47,691 bases of DNA. It comes from Planctomycetota bacterium (GTDB lineage Bacteria; Planctomycetota; Phycisphaerae; UBA1845; UTPLA1). The notes below the pieces were generated by a model. The model was not told the DNA's origin, searched no databases, and was given only the letters and a program-made list of their open reading frames with translations. The translations under genes were made by a program, and so were the position numbers. The stretch is from positions 1-47,691 of the forward strand of contig JACRIM010000033.1 in NCBI GenBank assembly GCA_016235815.1, given 5' to 3'. Positions 10,364-16,675 of the stretch are shown one piece after another. Position 1 is the first letter of the stretch. The number at the start of each line of letters is the position of its first letter.

Positions 10364-10436
<73 letters not shown>

Positions 10437-10524: not shown

Positions 10525-11694
10525 ATGACCCCGATTCGGCGCGATCGTCGCATCGGACTGTGGCTCATTGGCGCAAGCGGAAACGTTGCGGCAACCGTGG
10601 CGATTGGTCTGTCTGCGCTTCGACGAAAGCTTATTCGACCGGTTGGATTGCTTACGGAGGAGCTACCGGTCTCCAGTCTGCCACTCGCTGCTTTGTCACG
10701 CATCGTGGTGGGGGGGCATGAGATTGACCGGAGGCAGGTTCGACAGACCATTGCGGAATTGCATGAACGCAGCGGGTTGTTTAGCGAACGAGTGATTCGC
10801 GCGACGGCGGCCGATGTTCGTGCGGTGGAGCGAAATACACGGCGCGGCATCGCGTTGAGGGAGAACGCGGCGTTGGCTGTCGCTCGCGTTCGCCGCGATC
10901 TTCGCGAGTTCGCCCGGCGGAATCGATTGGAGCGCGTCGCCGTTATCAACGTGGCGTCGACGGAGCCGCCACTGCGAATCACGCCTGTTCATCAATCATG
11001 GGACCGCCTTGCCACCGCGCTAAAAGCGAATCGGGCCGCTTTGCCTGCGAGCAGCCTTTACGCGATCGCGGCGATTGAGGAACGAATGCCGTATGTGAAC
11101 TTCACGCCGTCCGCCGGGGCGGATGTGCCGGCCATTCGTGAGCGAGCCGCCGCGCTTGGCGCGTGCATCATGGGGGCCGACGGCAAGACGGGGGAGACGC
11201 TGCTGAAGAGTGTGCTTGCTCCCATGTTTCGGGATCGTGGTCTGCGCGTGCTTAGTTGGGCCGGGCACAACATCCTCGGTAATCGCGATGGGCAAGTGCT
11301 GAACTCGCCGGCCGCCAAGGCGTCGAAGCTGCGGACCAAGGACGGCATCGTGAAAAGCGTGCTCGGGCCGGGAACGCAGACGCACACGGCGATCGAGTTT
11401 ATTGAGTCGCTCGACGACTGGAAGACGGCTTGGGATCACATTCACTTCGAGGGCTTCCTCGGCACGCGGATGGCGATGCAGTTCATCTGGCAGGGGTGCG
11501 ATTCGGCGCTCGCTGCACCGTTGGTGATCGATCTGGCCCGGCTTGCGGAGTATCACGCGGCGACCGGGGGCACGGGCGTGATGACGCATCTTGCCTGCTA
11601 CTTCAAAGCTCCGATGGACGTTCGCGAGCATCAATTCTCCCGGCAGATCGACGCGCTTCGCCGTTACGCATTGGATCGGACGAGGGCGCGGTAA
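10525..11694 (+). CDS. ino1: Inositol-3-phosphate synthase (myo-inositol-1-phosphate synthase)
   Basis: A 389-residue enzyme converting glucose 6-phosphate to inositol 3-phosphate with bound NAD. The NAD-binding loop is LIGASGNVAAT (about 14-24). Family blocks NFTPSAGADVP, MGADGKTGETLLKSVLAPMF (with the catalytic lysines) and LSWAGHNILGNRDGQVL are clear. HIHFEGFLG and the C-terminal LACYFKAPMD complete the match to the short prokaryotic form. The ATG at 10525 was chosen because the Arg-rich upstream extension begins directly at the tRNA end and lies outside the fold. Its TAA overlaps the next ATG by one base, so it is translationally coupled to the TIM-barrel gene. The product probably feeds a lipid or small-molecule pathway with the two partners. 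Confidence 0.88.
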   Translation: MTPIRRDRRIGLWLIGASGNVAATVAIGLSALRRKLIRPVGLLTEELPVSSLPLAALSRIVVGGHEIDRRQVRQTIAELHERSGLFSERVIRATAADVRAVERNTRRGIALRENAALAVARVRRDLREFARRNRLERVAVINVASTEPPLRITPVHQSWDRLATALKANRAALPASSLYAIAAIEERMPYVNFTPSAGADVPAIRERAAALGACIMGADGKTGETLLKSVLAPMFRDRGLRVLSWAGHNILGNRDGQVLNSPAAKASKLRTKDGIVKSVLGPGTQTHTAIEFIESLDDWKTAWDHIHFEGFLGTRMAMQFIWQGCDSALAAPLVIDLARLAEYHAATGGTGVMTHLACYFKAPMDVREHQFSRQIDALRRYALDRTRAR

Positions 11695-12554
11695 TGGATC
11701 TGCGGCTCGCCTACAGCACGAATGCGTATATGCGCGTTGATGTGTTTGAGGCGATTCGGCGCGTCGCGGCGCTGGGCTATCGCGGCATCGAGTTGATGGC
11801 GGATGCACCGCACCTGTGGCCGCAGGAGACGACACGGGAGACGCTGGAGGCTGTTCGGGCGTTGGTTGGCGATCTCGGATTGACCATTTCCAACATCAAC
11901 GCATTCATGATGAATCGCATCGGGGATAAACGGCAGCCATACTGGCATCCGAGTTGGATCGAGGCGGACTCGGCCTATCGGCAGATTCGGATCGATCACA
12001 CGATGGCGGCGTTGACGATGGCGAAGCACCTTGGTGCGACGTGTATCACCACCGAGCCGGGTGGGCCGATTATGAGCGGCGATACTTATGCCGCGGCGAT
12101 GGATCGATTCGTGGGGGTGCTGAAACCCGTGGTGGCACACGCGGAGCGGGAGGGCGTGCGGTTGTTGATCGAGCCGGAGCCGGAGCTGCTCGTCGAGCGA
12201 TTCGAACAGTATTTAGAGCTACGCGGGCGGATTGACTCGCCGTACATGGGGCTTAATTTCGACATTGGCCATGCCTATTGCGTCGGCGAGGAGCCTCAAG
12301 AGTGGATTCCGCGAATGCGTGATCACACCCTTCATTATCACATCGAGGACATCGCCGCGACGCGGGTGCATCGACATCTTGTCCCCGGCGAGGGCGCGAT
12401 CGATTTCGCATCAACGCTTCGGGCGATTGGCGATGAATACTTCCGAGATGCGCGCGGGTGGGTTACGGTTGAGTTGTATCCCTACGTTGATGACCCGGAC
12501 GGCGCCGGGCGGGCGGCCAAGCTGTATTTAGAGTCCATCGCTGCAACATTATGA
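11694..12554 (+). CDS. Sugar isomerase/epimerase-like TIM barrel (xylose-isomerase/AP-endonuclease-2 fold)
   Basis: A 286-residue TIM-barrel protein of the xylose-isomerase-like superfamily. The opening LAYSTNAYMRVDVFEAIRR and GYRGIELMADAPHLWP are typical first strands. The expected metal ligands appear as Glu in LLIEPEPEL, Asp in NFDIGHAY, His/Glu in HYHIEDI and Glu in TVELYPYVDD. Members isomerise or epimerise sugars, inosose or related polyols, usually with a divalent metal. The start overlaps the stop of the synthase gene (TAATG) and its stop overlaps the prenyltransferase start (ATGA), so the three genes are one translational unit. A role on an inositol- or inosose-derived intermediate is inferred from that coupling. 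Confidence 0.82.
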   Translation: MDLRLAYSTNAYMRVDVFEAIRRVAALGYRGIELMADAPHLWPQETTRETLEAVRALVGDLGLTISNINAFMMNRIGDKRQPYWHPSWIEADSAYRQIRIDHTMAALTMAKHLGATCITTEPGGPIMSGDTYAAAMDRFVGVLKPVVAHAEREGVRLLIEPEPELLVERFEQYLELRGRIDSPYMGLNFDIGHAYCVGEEPQEWIPRMRDHTLHYHIEDIAATRVHRHLVPGEGAIDFASTLRAIGDEYFRDARGWVTVELYPYVDDPDGAGRAAKLYLESIAATL

Positions 12555-13462
12555 ACCGAGTCCGTGCCTGGTTGGAATTGGTGCGAGCGCCGAACCTGTT
12601 CACGGCGGCGGCGGATTCTCTTGCGGGATACTGGCTTTGCAGCGCGACGATCGATTTTCCGTGGCAGGCGGGTCTGATGATCGCGACGTCGGTTTGTCTC
12701 TATGCCGGCGGGATCGTGTTGAATGATCTCAGGGACATCGAGACGGATCGGCGCGAGCGACCGGCCCGTCCGCTTCCCTCGGGGCGCATTTTAGTTGTTT
12801 CGGCGAGCGTTCTCTATGTGGCGTCGCTTGGTATTGCGTTGATTGCATCGGTGGGAGCGGGGCTAGTCCCGGATGGCTCGGATGTGATCACCATTCGAGC
12901 GACGGGGTTTGTTGTTGCATGTGCGATCGCCGTTGTTGTTGCTTTGTACGACTGTGTTCTGAAAGAGACGGCGTTTGGTCCAGTCGCCATGGGGGCCTGT
13001 CGCGCGTTAAACGTGCTGCTCGGTATGTCAGTGGCCGGGCCGTTGAACTGGGATATTCGAATGGCAGCGCCGCTGGCGATGTTTGTTTATGTGGCGTCGT
13101 TCACTGCATTCGGTCGAAAGGAAGTCGGCATTAGCTCGCGAACTCGATTGACCGGCGGTGGCATCGGAGTACTCTTGAGCATCATTATCCTGGGCGTACT
13201 TGCGGCCAAGTCATTAGCCGACGATCCCGCCACGCTCGTGCTTTGGTTCGCCCTTGCGATCCACCTTGGCCGTGTGACTCTTCGTGCCGTTCGTCACCCG
13301 CAGCCCCTTCAGGTCGGCTATGCGATGAAAACGTTCATCCTCGCGGTCATCGCTTTCGACGCTGTCATAGCATCGGCGGCTCATGGGTGGCCCGCCGCGG
13401 CTGTCGTGATGATGCTATTGGTTCCTGCCATTGTGATCGGACGCTGGGTTTATTCGACATAG
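12551..13462 (+). CDS. UbiA-family prenyltransferase (EboC-like)
   Basis: A 303-residue membrane protein with about eight hydrophobic helices. The first Mg-prenyl-diphosphate motif is N58-D-x2-D62-x3-D66 (NDLRDIETD) followed by RPARPLPSGRI. The second motif region reads LYDCVLKETAFGPVAMGACRALN, where a YDxxLK segment is typical of the EboC-like branch rather than of quinone-pathway UbiA. Such enzymes transfer a prenyl chain to an aromatic or polar acceptor in the membrane. The ATGA overlap with the TIM-barrel gene suggests coupled expression. The acceptor is unknown; an inositol-derived polyol head group is an attractive inference. Confidence 0.85.
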   Translation: MNRVRAWLELVRAPNLFTAAADSLAGYWLCSATIDFPWQAGLMIATSVCLYAGGIVLNDLRDIETDRRERPARPLPSGRILVVSASVLYVASLGIALIASVGAGLVPDGSDVITIRATGFVVACAIAVVVALYDCVLKETAFGPVAMGACRALNVLLGMSVAGPLNWDIRMAAPLAMFVYVASFTAFGRKEVGISSRTRLTGGGIGVLLSIIILGVLAAKSLADDPATLVLWFALAIHLGRVTLRAVRHPQPLQVGYAMKTFILAVIAFDAVIASAAHGWPAAAVVMMLLVPAIVIGRWVYST

Positions 13463-13646: not shown

Positions 13647-13754
13647 CGGAGGGAGAAGTCGTCTCCCAGGCAAAGAATAGAAGAGCCAAGCCCGGTGTGC
13701 GCGTCTCGCATCTCGCGCCTTGCTCAACTGAGTTGGACATTCAAGGAGAGAGAA

Positions 13755-14441
13755 ATGAAGAAGGTACTAGCAGCTTTAGTTTTGGTGTGCGCGGCACAGG
13801 CTGCCTACGCACGACCGATCATTAACGATTCCGCTGGTGACGTTTTCACTGGCGCGGGCGGAGGCATCCTGGACATTCTCAGTCTTGAGGTAAGCGACGA
13901 CGGCAGCGCGCTTTCATTCAAGTTCACACTGGCGGGCGATGTCGTGGCCACCGACTGGGGAAAGTACATGGTCATGATTGACACTGTTCCGGGTGGCGAC
14001 AACGGCGGAAATGGTTGGGCTCGCCCAATCAGCTGGGGTCAGCCAGGTATCGGAGCGGGTGCTGATTACTGGATTGGTTCATGGGTTGACAGTGGCAATG
14101 GGGCGGAGAACTACAACTACTCCGGCTCGTGGGCGCTGCAGGATGCAACCTACACCAATGGCCTGATCAGCATTTCCAAGGCCGGCAGCACTGTGACGAT
14201 TTCCACGGCCCTGAGTCGAATGGGACTCGGTGCTAATCAACAGTTTTGCTTCGACGCATTCACCAGTGGTGGTGGCGGCGGCGATGGCGCGATCGATTCA
14301 CTGGGTGACCCCGGTGTTCATGTTGGTGATTGGGGACAGCCTTCCAACGCGTTCCCGGTCTGCTACACGACGACACCAGAGCCCGGATCACTGGCTCTGC
14401 TGTGCATCGGTGGCTTGGCGTTGATCCGCCGCCGACGCTAA
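13755..14441 (+). CDS. PEP-CTERM sorting-domain protein
   Basis: A 228-residue secreted protein. The N-terminal signal peptide is MKKVLAALVLVCAAQAAYA (cleavage after AYA, residue 19). The C-terminus carries the tripartite sorting tail: PEP in TTTPEPGSLALL, a hydrophobic stretch (LCIGGLALI) and a final Arg cluster (RRRR), which is recognised and cut by an exosortase. The body is Gly/Asn-rich and beta-predicted. GGAGAG lies directly upstream of the ATG at 13755; an open extension upstream has no such site. No exosortase gene is in the window. In other bacteria these proteins accompany exopolysaccharide production. Confidence 0.85.
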   Translation: MKKVLAALVLVCAAQAAYARPIINDSAGDVFTGAGGGILDILSLEVSDDGSALSFKFTLAGDVVATDWGKYMVMIDTVPGGDNGGNGWARPISWGQPGIGAGADYWIGSWVDSGNGAENYNYSGSWALQDATYTNGLISISKAGSTVTISTALSRMGLGANQQFCFDAFTSGGGGGDGAIDSLGDPGVHVGDWGQPSNAFPVCYTTTPEPGSLALLCIGGLALIRRRR

Positions 14442-14466
14442 GGTAGCTTTACCATTGATAGCTAGT

Positions 14467-14506
14467 GCCGGCCCGCGCTCGTATGAGTGCGGGCCGGCTT
14501 TTTTTT
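14467..14506 (+). terminator. Rho-independent terminator
   Basis: Arms 14467-14480 and 14485-14498 pair over 14 bp with one mismatch around GTAT, followed by eight T residues (14499-14506). It ends the PEP-CTERM transcript. Confidence 0.93.
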
Positions 14507-14569
14507 GGCGTGGACAATTTGCGCCGACTGACATACACAGTCACGGTACAGCGGCTGACGCGTTACATC

Positions 14570-16675
14570 ATGTTGTCACGATCTCAACAAACTGCGCCCA
14601 AGGCACCCGTTCGAGCAATCAGCCCACGACGGCGTCTGATTTACATCGGGGTATGCGTGCTCAGCCCGATTTTGCTGTTGGGAATGCTGGAGCTGATTCT
14701 GCGTTGCATTGGGTTGGGCGGATACCCCGGCGTATTGCGATCGGTGGGGACGATTGACAATGCTTCCCTTTACATTACGGAAACCAAGGCGGCCAGCAGC
14801 TATTTCATCGCGAACAAGAGCCGCCCGGGCACGATGCATGAAAACGATTTCTTCATTCCCAAGCCGCCCGGCACCCTGCGAATTCTCTTTTGCGGCGAAT
14901 CGGCGGCCAAAGGATTTCCTCAACCCCGTGCCTTCGCTGCATCGGCTTTCCTTGAGTTGATGCTGACCGATCTGCTGCCGGGGCGAAAAGTCGAAGTCAT
15001 CAACATCGCGACAACCGCCGTGGCGAGCTTTCCGATTCTGGGCTTGCTCAGGGATGCGCTGCCCTGTCAGCCGGACGTGGTTGTCATTTATTGCGGAAAC
15101 AACGAATTCTTTGGCGCCTATGGGGTGGCGTCCATGCACAGCGCGGGTCGTTCGCCGGTAGGCATGCGAATTCAGCGCGCGTTTCGTTCCACCGCGGTGG
15201 CACAGTTCATCGAGCAATTCACCCAGGGTACAGCCCCGGCCGACAACAGAACGCTCATGGAAACAGTGATGGGAAAGGCTGCCATCGCCCCCAACGATCC
15301 GCTCAGGCTGGATGCGGCCCGCAATCTGCATGAAAACATCGCGGAGATGATCAAATTGTGCCGCAGCACCAGGGTTCCCTGCATCGTATGCACGCCACCT
15401 TGCAACGAGCGCGACATGGCCCCGCTGGGGCAGGACGATCTGAGCGTGCTTAGCGCCGACTCCCGTGCTGAATTCAACAACGCGTTCAAAGAGGGAATCA
15501 AAAAGGGAACGCCGGTCGAACAGCGCGCCGCGTTGCTCGCCTCTGCAATCAAGACCCATCCGACCAGCGCCCTTGCTCACTATCAACTCGGCCGGCTGAT
15601 GCACGCGCAGCAAAAATACACGGAGGCGCTGCGGGAATTTCAGCAGGCCGTCGACTTCGATTCGATGCCATGGAGACCTCCTGCTGCAAATGTCGAAGCC
15701 ATTCGCACTGCTGCAACGGAAAACGCCGCGATATTGTGCGATCTGGCAGGGGCCTTCCGGGCTGCCAGCGAGGGCGGCTGCTGCGGCATAGACCTCATGG
15801 ACGACCATGTCCATCCGTCGCTTCGTGGTCAGGCAATCGTGGCTCGCTCGCTGGTCAAACGTATTATTGAACTGAGCGACGTAGCGAAAATCGCTCCCGG
15901 GGCCGAATCGAAGCTGGGGAACTGGGAGGATTATGCGAAGCGACTTGGTGACAACCCTTATGAGCGATACGGTGTCGCACATACGCTTCGCGTGCTTTGT
16001 AACGTGCCGTTTATCCGCTCCACCAATCCGGATTTCTTTGACAGATTTGATAAGTACTGCAAAGACTTTGAGGCCACCCTGTCTCCGCAAATGCTGGAGC
16101 AGGCCAGGCGTTGGCAGGATCCCAAGACGCATACCGGAAACATCCAGCGGCCCATCAGCGCCCTGATGGCCAATGTACTGGTGACCGAAGGCAAGCATGC
16201 GCTCGCCGAACCGTTGTACGCCTGCGCCATTCGCAATGTTCCGCCCTATTCATCGCTAAACCTGGACTACACCTATTTTCGGCTCGCCGCCCTGGAACGG
16301 GCAAGCGGCACGCTCGATGAAAATGCGCGGCAGGAGGCATTACGGGCGATCGAGCGCGGCACGTTTCTGCTCTCACATGGCTTCGCCGGGAGCGGAATAA
16401 CCGAGCGCTTTGTCGGGCGACTCCATCAACTGCGCCATGAGTTCAATGAGGCAATACCATTTCTACTGGAGGCCCATTCCAAGTTGAAGGGCAAAGATCG
16501 GCTTGCAGCGGATCAGGCGCTGGTGGTCTCTTACGTGCAGACAAAGCAAACAGCCAGGGCGCGTCAGTTTCTAAAGGACATGATCTCCTCAAACGATCCC
16601 ATGGCAGAAATATATGGGCAACTGCTTCGCAATCTGGACGAACATTCGGACAGGCAAACCACGATAAATCCATAG
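14570..16675 (+). CDS. Membrane-anchored SGNH-hydrolase/TPR protein
   Basis: A 701-residue protein with one N-terminal transmembrane helix (about 25-46) and an SGNH/GDSL hydrolase domain. The catalytic elements are Ser111 (CGES), Asn178 (CGNNEFF) and Asp412/His415 (DDHVHPS). Between the Asn block and the Asp-His block lies a helical tetratricopeptide-like insert (about 340-385, HPTSALAHYQLGRLMHAQQKYTEALREF). A second all-helical repeat region fills the last ~250 residues. SGNH enzymes of this membrane type often add or remove acyl groups on envelope glycans; the helical repeats suggest a scaffold. The ATG at 14570 is used because the open frame upstream runs into the preceding terminator. Ribosome binding is weak, so the start is moderately certain. 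Confidence 0.78.
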   Translation: MLSRSQQTAPKAPVRAISPRRRLIYIGVCVLSPILLLGMLELILRCIGLGGYPGVLRSVGTIDNASLYITETKAASSYFIANKSRPGTMHENDFFIPKPPGTLRILFCGESAAKGFPQPRAFAASAFLELMLTDLLPGRKVEVINIATTAVASFPILGLLRDALPCQPDVVVIYCGNNEFFGAYGVASMHSAGRSPVGMRIQRAFRSTAVAQFIEQFTQGTAPADNRTLMETVMGKAAIAPNDPLRLDAARNLHENIAEMIKLCRSTRVPCIVCTPPCNERDMAPLGQDDLSVLSADSRAEFNNAFKEGIKKGTPVEQRAALLASAIKTHPTSALAHYQLGRLMHAQQKYTEALREFQQAVDFDSMPWRPPAANVEAIRTAATENAAILCDLAGAFRAASEGGCCGIDLMDDHVHPSLRGQAIVARSLVKRIIELSDVAKIAPGAESKLGNWEDYAKRLGDNPYERYGVAHTLRVLCNVPFIRSTNPDFFDRFDKYCKDFEATLSPQMLEQARRWQDPKTHTGNIQRPISALMANVLVTEGKHALAEPLYACAIRNVPPYSSLNLDYTYFRLAALERASGTLDENARQEALRAIERGTFLLSHGFAGSGITERFVGRLHQLRHEFNEAIPFLLEAHSKLKGKDRLAADQALVVSYVQTKQTARARQFLKDMISSNDPMAEIYGQLLRNLDEHSDRQTTINP

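Follow-up and report, generated by a model that had tools for sequence, protein, structure and literature searches.

What does an inositol-phosphate synthase gene do in one operon with genes for a sugar isomerase-like protein and a membrane prenyltransferase? This question is raised by a contig of a Planctomycetota bacterium (GenBank JACRIM010000033.1, assembly GCA_016235815.1), of which positions 1 to 47,691 were analysed and are referred to here as the window. Three overlapping genes code for an inositol-phosphate synthase (MIPS), a xylose-isomerase-like TIM barrel protein (TIM1) and an EboC-like prenyltransferase of the UbiA superfamily. The comparisons presented here suggest that this triad is probably one half, the one lying in the window, of a variant ebo pathway, with MIPS and a second TIM barrel protein (TIM2) in place of EboD and TIM1 in place of EboE; the product would be a prenylated cyclitol. 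Where an unknown cyclase gives way to an enzyme whose chemistry is familiar, there would be a direct handle on the ebo product.

For the widespread ebo cluster, an isoprenoid-cyclitol product has been proposed by Yurchenko in 2016, with EboD acting on sedoheptulose 7-phosphate; in the same survey, eboD was missing in two of three Planctomycetes, alongside a remark on draft assemblies (PMC5133447). MIPS in the place of EboD offers an explanation for these eboD-less species. In Nostoc, ebo mutants were reported by Klicki in 2018 to be blocked in the export of the scytonemin monomer, and the ebo cluster has been tied to nematode deterrence in Pseudomonas (PMC6282210). An EboC-type enzyme of Maribacter farnesylates quinoline derivatives in vitro, and 8-hydroxyquinoline-2-carboxylic acid is a substrate of flavobacterial EboC-type enzymes (PMC9235831). 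No ebo product is named in the excerpts of these papers drawn on here, and the word 'inositol' is absent from the main texts of all three. Among the matches listed by a literature search, which had subscription papers and preprints outside its scope, no paper linking inositol-phosphate synthase with ebo genes was found.

Distribution of the cyclases in Planctomycetota

For the co-distribution analysis, EboC and five other queries were run against 195 Planctomycetota genomes with a completeness of at least 90%. Matches were counted at E <= 1e-25 for EboC-like proteins (97 genomes), E <= 1e-8 for MIPS (108), the curated cut-off for EboD (44), E <= 1e-30 for EboE (138), E <= 1e-55 for TIM1 (15) and E <= 1e-36 for TIM2 (97). 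The curated cut-off for EboC was reached in none of the 195 genomes. For TIM2, 97 of 98 genomes were kept, with G117 dropped (131.7 bits, coinciding with its TIM1 match). The presence of EboE in 138 genomes implies that ebo-type genes are far commoner in Planctomycetota than could be gathered from the three species surveyed in 2016; in 133 of these genomes, EboE was also over its curated cut-off.

EboE or TIM1 was present in 153 genomes, and among these 102 contained only MIPS, 41 only EboD, three both and seven neither (Fisher 2.7e-26), so that a cyclase of one or the other type was identified in 146. In the 42 genomes lacking both EboE and TIM1, MIPS was found three times, EboD not at all, TIM2 twice and an EboC-like protein twice. 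The same exclusion was visible when only the 52 genomes with an EboC-like score of at least 125 were considered (27 MIPS only, 19 EboD only, two both, four neither). TIM2, which was absent from the original prediction's account of the locus, tracks MIPS: both were present in 96 genomes and absent from 86, while 12 contained MIPS only and one TIM2 only. None of the 44 EboD genomes, and thus none of the three with both cyclases (G069, G139, G169), contained TIM2. TIM1 and EboE never occurred together, about 10.6 such genomes being expected; the count is restricted to TIM1 matches at E <= 1e-55, and weaker relatives of TIM1 in genomes with EboE fall outside it.

Kinship was controlled by drawing one genome per family 500 times from 51 families, without a species tree. 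The exclusion of MIPS and EboD persisted, with a median p of 5e-8 and a highest p of 1.5e-6. Taken together, the replacement of EboD by MIPS and TIM2, and of EboE by TIM1, is well supported by these comparisons of gene content.

The MIPS proteins of the genomes containing both cyclases are of distant subtypes. Scored by the better of the matches to the window MIPS or to its actinomycete counterpart, they reached 29, 188 and (a partial protein) 130 bits, while the remaining proteins compared ranged from 251 to 488 bits, save for that of G185 and one of the two copies each in G120 and G076. A separate MIPS subtype was observed in family f45 (G139, G169, G185; loci L154-L156), alongside EboD in two of these genomes. 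In a tree of 34 MIPS proteins, the pathway-type proteins of Planctomycetota, four actinomycetes and a Deltaproteobacteria metagenome-assembled genome (MAG) formed one group of 27 (support 83/93). The MIPS of Gemmatirosa, of G185 and of the three genomes with both cyclases fell outside this group, as did a single copy out of two in both G120 and G076. A single clade of all 28, the group with the Gemmatirosa protein, was not rejected (approximately unbiased (AU) test, p-AU 0.185).

The proteins of the operon and their partners

The window MIPS contains both Pfam domains of the family over their cut-offs (Table 1). It is homologous nearly end to end to the Archaeoglobus fulgidus enzyme 1u1i (222.8 bits). 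One asparagine and four lysines (N249, K268, K272, K300 and K361 in window numbering) are kept in 34 of 34 aligned MIPS proteins, and we take these positions to be the catalytic N255, K274, K278, K306 and K367. Single changes to alanine at three of the five occur in near-identical chains. The protein is the sole PF01658 match of its genome at E <= 1e-8, and is predicted to convert glucose 6-phosphate to inositol phosphate.

TIM1 had been described in the original prediction as an EboE-like TIM barrel. As a candidate for EboE itself it was ruled out by sequence, with 27.1 bits to the EboE model against a cut-off of 250; it is instead a protein that shares none of the 195 genomes with EboE. The predicted TIM1 model (predicted local distance difference test, pLDDT, 93.7) has its nearest solved fold in the ketose 3-epimerase-like 3wqo (Z 32.3, root-mean-square deviation (rmsd) 1.9, 258 aligned residues), with further matches, Art22 and UlaE among them, trailing by no more than about 3 Z. 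As many as 959 of 1000 chains matched at Z 8 or more, and because the fold is common to many sugar isomerases and epimerases, it names no substrate. Invariant across 22 TIM1 proteins are E160, D190, H216 and E260, which presumably fit the metal site of the xylose-isomerase-fold superfamily.

The membership of the third protein in the UbiA superfamily is indicated by PF01040 (40.6 bits, cut-off 34.2), by the UbiA fold and by the NDxxDxxxD motif, of which N58, D59, D62 and D66 are invariant in 25 aligned rows. A T185...E191 pair in the second half is the same in flavobacterial EboC. The best NCBIfam model is EboC (NF035940, 179.2 bits), followed by the SCO3242 family (NF045897, 136.8 bits, cut-off 260) and two archaeal-type prenyltransferases (63 and 48 bits). 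The earlier description as an EboC-like prenyltransferase thus stands as far as the best model is concerned, but the score remains under the EboC cut-off of 250. Models for ubiquinone, homogentisate and chlorophyll enzymes gave at most 24.5 bits, and no heme-pathway model was among the NCBIfam matches listed, so that the profile scores place the protein, as the prediction had implied, among the EboC relatives and not with the quinone enzymes.

Its predicted model (pLDDT 93.5) is nearest to 6m31, a digeranylgeranylglyceryl-phosphate (DGGGP) synthase (Z 25.7, rmsd 4.2, 265 aligned residues), and second-nearest to an Aeropyrum UbiA homologue (Z 24.2). DGGGP synthase adds its prenyl chain at a hydroxyl group of a glycerol-phosphate lipid. 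The profile match to 6m31 (82 bits) covers the first half only and stops at position 143. A UbiA tree was calculated with further UbiA proteins from this genome and its relatives as outgroup, leaving out L002, L025 and L026, where no open reading frame passed the filter, as well as L024 and L032. It neither supports nor excludes a placement, with outgroup end branches of 1.5-5.7 changes per column and an AU p of 0.25 for one EboC-like clade; since long branches meet in this tree, the placement rests on the profile scores. By comparison, the UbiA protein appears to hold the place of EboC.

The remaining ebo-type genes of the window genome were identified on a second contig. The triad lies on C14, and TIM2, an EboF-like phosphodiesterase and an EboB homologue on C35, where TIM2 and the phosphodiesterase are side by side and the EboB homologue is located about 13 kb away. 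Homologues of EboB and EboF, which the original prediction had proposed to look for elsewhere, are therefore present; the full set is not clustered but divided into three genes on each contig. Searches of the window genome gave no EboD match (NF004852) at E <= 1e-60 and no EboE match (NF035939) at E <= 1e-30. For EboA (NF035938) there was no match either, and 14 control genomes likewise gave none, which leaves this negative without a positive control.

Organization of the operon and its conservation

Pfam and NCBIfam agree with the predicted classes of the three genes, and the sequence shows their overlaps of 1 and 4 bases. The last A of the MIPS stop codon TAA (11692-11694) is the first base of the TIM1 start ATG, and in ATGA at 12551-12554 the TIM1 stop and the UbiA start are joined. 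Among the gene overlaps of bacterial operons, those of 1 and 4 bases are the most frequent, and they therefore support an operon; the 'stoichiometric expression' read from them earlier was overstated.

Table 1. Positions of the operon genes, their neighbours in the window and the partner genes on contig C35.
Feature	Position	Strand	Scores and remarks
MIPS, inositol-phosphate synthase, 389 aa	10525..11694	+	PF07994 156.8 bits, PF01658 112.7 bits
TIM1, xylose-isomerase-like TIM barrel, ketose 3-epimerase type, 286 aa	11694..12554	+	PF01261 135.4 bits
EboC-like UbiA-superfamily membrane prenyltransferase, 303 aa	12551..13462	+	NF035940 179.2 bits; NDxxDxxxD motif
tRNA-Lys (CTT)	10364-10436		directly upstream of MIPS
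PEP-CTERM protein	13752-14441		directly downstream of the operon
GDSL-hydrolase/TPR protein	14465-16675		downstream of the operon, after the PEP-CTERM protein
TIM2, second TIM barrel	C35:71019-71855		58% identity to TIM2 of L039
EboF-like phosphodiesterase	C35:71860-73167		PF01663 175.3 bits; 288 bits to Maribacter EboF
EboB homologue, metal-dependent hydrolase	C35:56775-57584		331 bits to the L144 EboB homologue; 234.9 bits to Maribacter EboB

The linkage was followed with the EboC model in 61 genomes, comprising the window genome and 60 relatives. At E <= 1e-10, matches were identified in 30 of them, and in 9 of the 17 of the window's family, its own included. At the 18 other loci with an EboC score of at least 142 bits (L035-L052), some of which lie on short contigs, TIM1 was a neighbour in 16, MIPS in 12, and all three genes were together in 11. 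The association of the triad is more than chance, and the check for conserved linkage suggested with the original prediction came out in its favour. The 4-base overlap of TIM1 and UbiA recurs in 11 of the 16 loci with a TIM1 neighbour. Two loci with weaker scores to the EboC model (L053 and L054) had neither TIM1 nor MIPS alongside. Just 3' of the UbiA gene, a second TIM-barrel open reading frame was present in 7 of the 18 loci; that of L039 belongs to PF01261, and in L039 and L051 the next gene codes for a PF01663 phosphodiesterase.

A wider sample consisted of the best 80 of the 274 relatives' loci, taken from named genomes, with many contigs ending near the gene. Its counts lean to planctomycetes because the search patterns were drawn from planctomycete UbiA proteins. 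Ten of the 80 loci are from Bacteroidota, with EboD in all and MIPS in none; within the retrieved stretches of the other 70, MIPS was found in 21, TIM1 in 49 and EboD in none. The locus of the Deltaproteobacteria MAG (L144) contains MIPS, two TIM1-like genes, UbiA, EboB and a partial phosphodiesterase.

Among 16 matched plasmid records, the surroundings of six were examined, selected by hand. The annotation of the Streptomyces plasmid NZ_CP024990 lists an inositol-3-phosphate synthase, a SCO3242 family prenyltransferase, a sugar phosphate isomerase, an EboA domain, TatD, EboE and a nucleotide pyrophosphatase; its sugar isomerase is of the TIM2 type (232 bits versus 85 for TIM1). In Nonomuraea, a second Streptomyces and Embleya, MIPS, UbiA, a TIM2-type protein, EboB, EboE and the phosphodiesterase were identified by search, with EboA separately recognised only in Embleya. 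Gemmatirosa has the same six genes without EboA, and with EboE on the opposite strand. EboD was not found within the retrieved stretches of the four actinomycete clusters. Thus, the earlier suggestion of an ebo-like composition with MIPS as the cyclase is borne out by the top model of the UbiA protein, by the conserved linkage and by these MIPS-containing ebo clusters.

Three further loci are recorded here. A plasmid of Deinococcus sp. QL22 (L148, 4394-10289) carries a single cluster of EboD, TatD, EboE, UbiA, a phosphodiesterase and a short hypothetical gene that is perhaps EboG, with no MIPS nearby. A MAG contig labelled Nitrososphaera, an archaeon (L121, 3-2259), carries an EboC-like UbiA gene followed by a phosphodiesterase gene, and is either a true archaeal cluster or mis-binned. 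A MIPS-type ebo cluster on a Streptomyces plasmid (L145, 1-8050) adjoins ketosynthase, chain-length factor, acyl carrier protein and aromatase genes; such type II polyketide genes would fit a helper role of the cluster for another metabolite.

The mechanically called open reading frame of the window MIPS opens at GTG 10441, just after the tRNA-Lys gene. A start at ATG 10525 fits the solved relative 1u1i, which aligns from its residue 12 on. Promoter, terminator and Rfam scans gave only the tRNA and chance-level sites. Upstream genes were assigned by Pfam and NCBIfam to a RluA-type pseudouridine synthase and a MreC-like protein; neither these nor the two downstream genes have an evident link to the triad.

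Proposed pathway, alternatives and known systems

In the proposed pathway, MIPS would cyclise glucose 6-phosphate to inositol phosphate, and TIM1 and TIM2, both presumably metal-dependent, would act as isomerases or epimerases on an intermediate, either a sugar or an inosose. In the membrane, the UbiA protein, most like DGGGP synthase in build, would prenylate one of the hydroxyls of the cyclitol or of its phosphate, and the phosphodiesterase and EboB might trim phosphate or other groups. We infer that a prenylated cyclitol lipid would result, which may be a carrier or cofactor for the export role that has been reported from Nostoc.

Several observations weigh against this proposal, which was derived from gene comparison. 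TIM2 is its weakest link, being a ketose-type epimerase with no obvious substrate in finished inositol phosphate. A barrel of this type needs a ketose or inosose, which makes the order of the steps uncertain; TIM2 may take an inosose as substrate or work ahead of the cyclisation. Both the UbiA protein and TIM1 miss the curated cut-offs of the families whose places they would take (179.2 and 27.1 against 250 bits), 12 of the 108 MIPS genomes gave no TIM2 match, and the seven pathway genomes with neither cyclase and the three with both depart from the pattern. The thresholds were set by the analyst and only that for EboC was varied; an EboD-model match occurs in 74 genomes, of which 30 stayed under the cut-off, with best scores of 207-233 bits, and were treated as EboD-free. 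The support of the pathway MIPS group is under the star threshold, and the Gemmatirosa protein falls outside it. Judged by the coordinates, linkage in the 195 genomes is loose: of the 64 that have an EboC-like gene and MIPS, just 10 have the two no more than 5 kb apart, and for EboD this holds in 10 of 30. The farnesylation of quinolines by flavobacterial EboC-type enzymes in vitro (PMC9235831) stands against a cyclitol acceptor.

Under a housekeeping explanation, inositol lipids such as phosphatidylinositol would draw on MIPS for their inositol, and co-transcription of its gene with TIM1 and UbiA would be incidental. No second MIPS was found in the window genome, the protein has the active site of an ordinary enzyme of this family, and many genomes, G224 and G149 among them, carry MIPS far away from their EboC-like gene. 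However, MIPS was present in only 3 of the 42 genomes without EboE or TIM1 compared to 105 of the 153 with one of them, it tracks TIM2 and avoids EboD, and its adjacency recurs in actinomycetes, Gemmatirosa and the Deltaproteobacteria MAG, which makes a housekeeping role unlikely. That the pattern instead reflects an early split of MIPS and EboD lineages, and hence few independent events, would agree with the uniformity of many families (29 with MIPS only and 13 with EboD only among the 51) and with the uneven spread of the sample. Such an artefact is hardly likely, since families f33 (11 MIPS and 9 EboD genomes) and f61 (4 and 1) each hold both types, the exclusion is retained with one genome per family, and MIPS occurs in ebo clusters of other phyla as well.

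A further explanation concerns the acceptor. The UbiA protein might prenylate glycerol phosphate or another non-cyclitol compound, yielding archaeal-type ether lipids or a prenylated aromatic, with MIPS and the TIM barrels belonging to a separate branch. DGGGP synthase is its nearest solved relative by sequence and fold, and 8-hydroxyquinoline-2-carboxylic acid is farnesylated in vitro by flavobacterial EboC-type enzymes (PMC9235831). A generic DGGGP role would not explain, however, why 146 of the 153 genomes with EboE or TIM1 contain EboD or MIPS; this points to a cyclitol acceptor and renders the explanation quite unlikely.

Returning to the ebo variant with MIPS and TIM2, if the rings made by MIPS and EboD were exchangeable, EboD would more likely turn glucose 6-phosphate into a six-carbon cyclitol than sedoheptulose 7-phosphate into a C7 ring. 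It is conceivable, if somewhat short of probable, that ebo pathways of several phyla use either EboD or a dedicated MIPS with TIM2, and either EboE or TIM1, for one prenylated six-carbon cyclitol lipid, and that the EboD product can be read from inositol-phosphate chemistry.

In comparison to the known eboABCDEF cluster, the window genome contains an EboC-type UbiA protein, xylose-isomerase-fold proteins, an EboF-type phosphodiesterase and an EboB-type hydrolase, and in the window a cyclase gene is likewise next to the prenyltransferase gene. However, this cyclase is MIPS, of a family unrelated to the dehydroquinate-synthase-like EboD, TIM1 is present in place of EboE, TIM2 is additional, and the genes are located on two contigs. 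The window MIPS shares with the Archaeoglobus enzyme its near full-length homology and the active-site positions, but is located in an operon with a prenyltransferase and a TIM barrel. For the UbiA protein, DGGGP synthase is the nearest solved relative, from which its second half has diverged.

Another counterpart is the SCO3242-type ebo cluster of actinomycetes, as on NZ_CP024990, to which SCO3241, SCO3242 and SCO3243 presumably belong together. Here, too, MIPS adjoins UbiA, accompanied by a TIM2-type protein, and EboB and the phosphodiesterase are present, whereas EboE and an EboA domain are retained, no TIM1 was seen, and the UbiA protein gives 82 bits against that of the window. In excerpts on the calcium-dependent antibiotic (CDA) region of S. 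coelicolor, SCO3242 is listed as a putative transferase and SCO3243 as a myo-inositol phosphate synthase (PMC3610822). The parts were already named by the NCBI annotation in Streptomyces, while the pattern of replacement between MIPS and EboD may be new.

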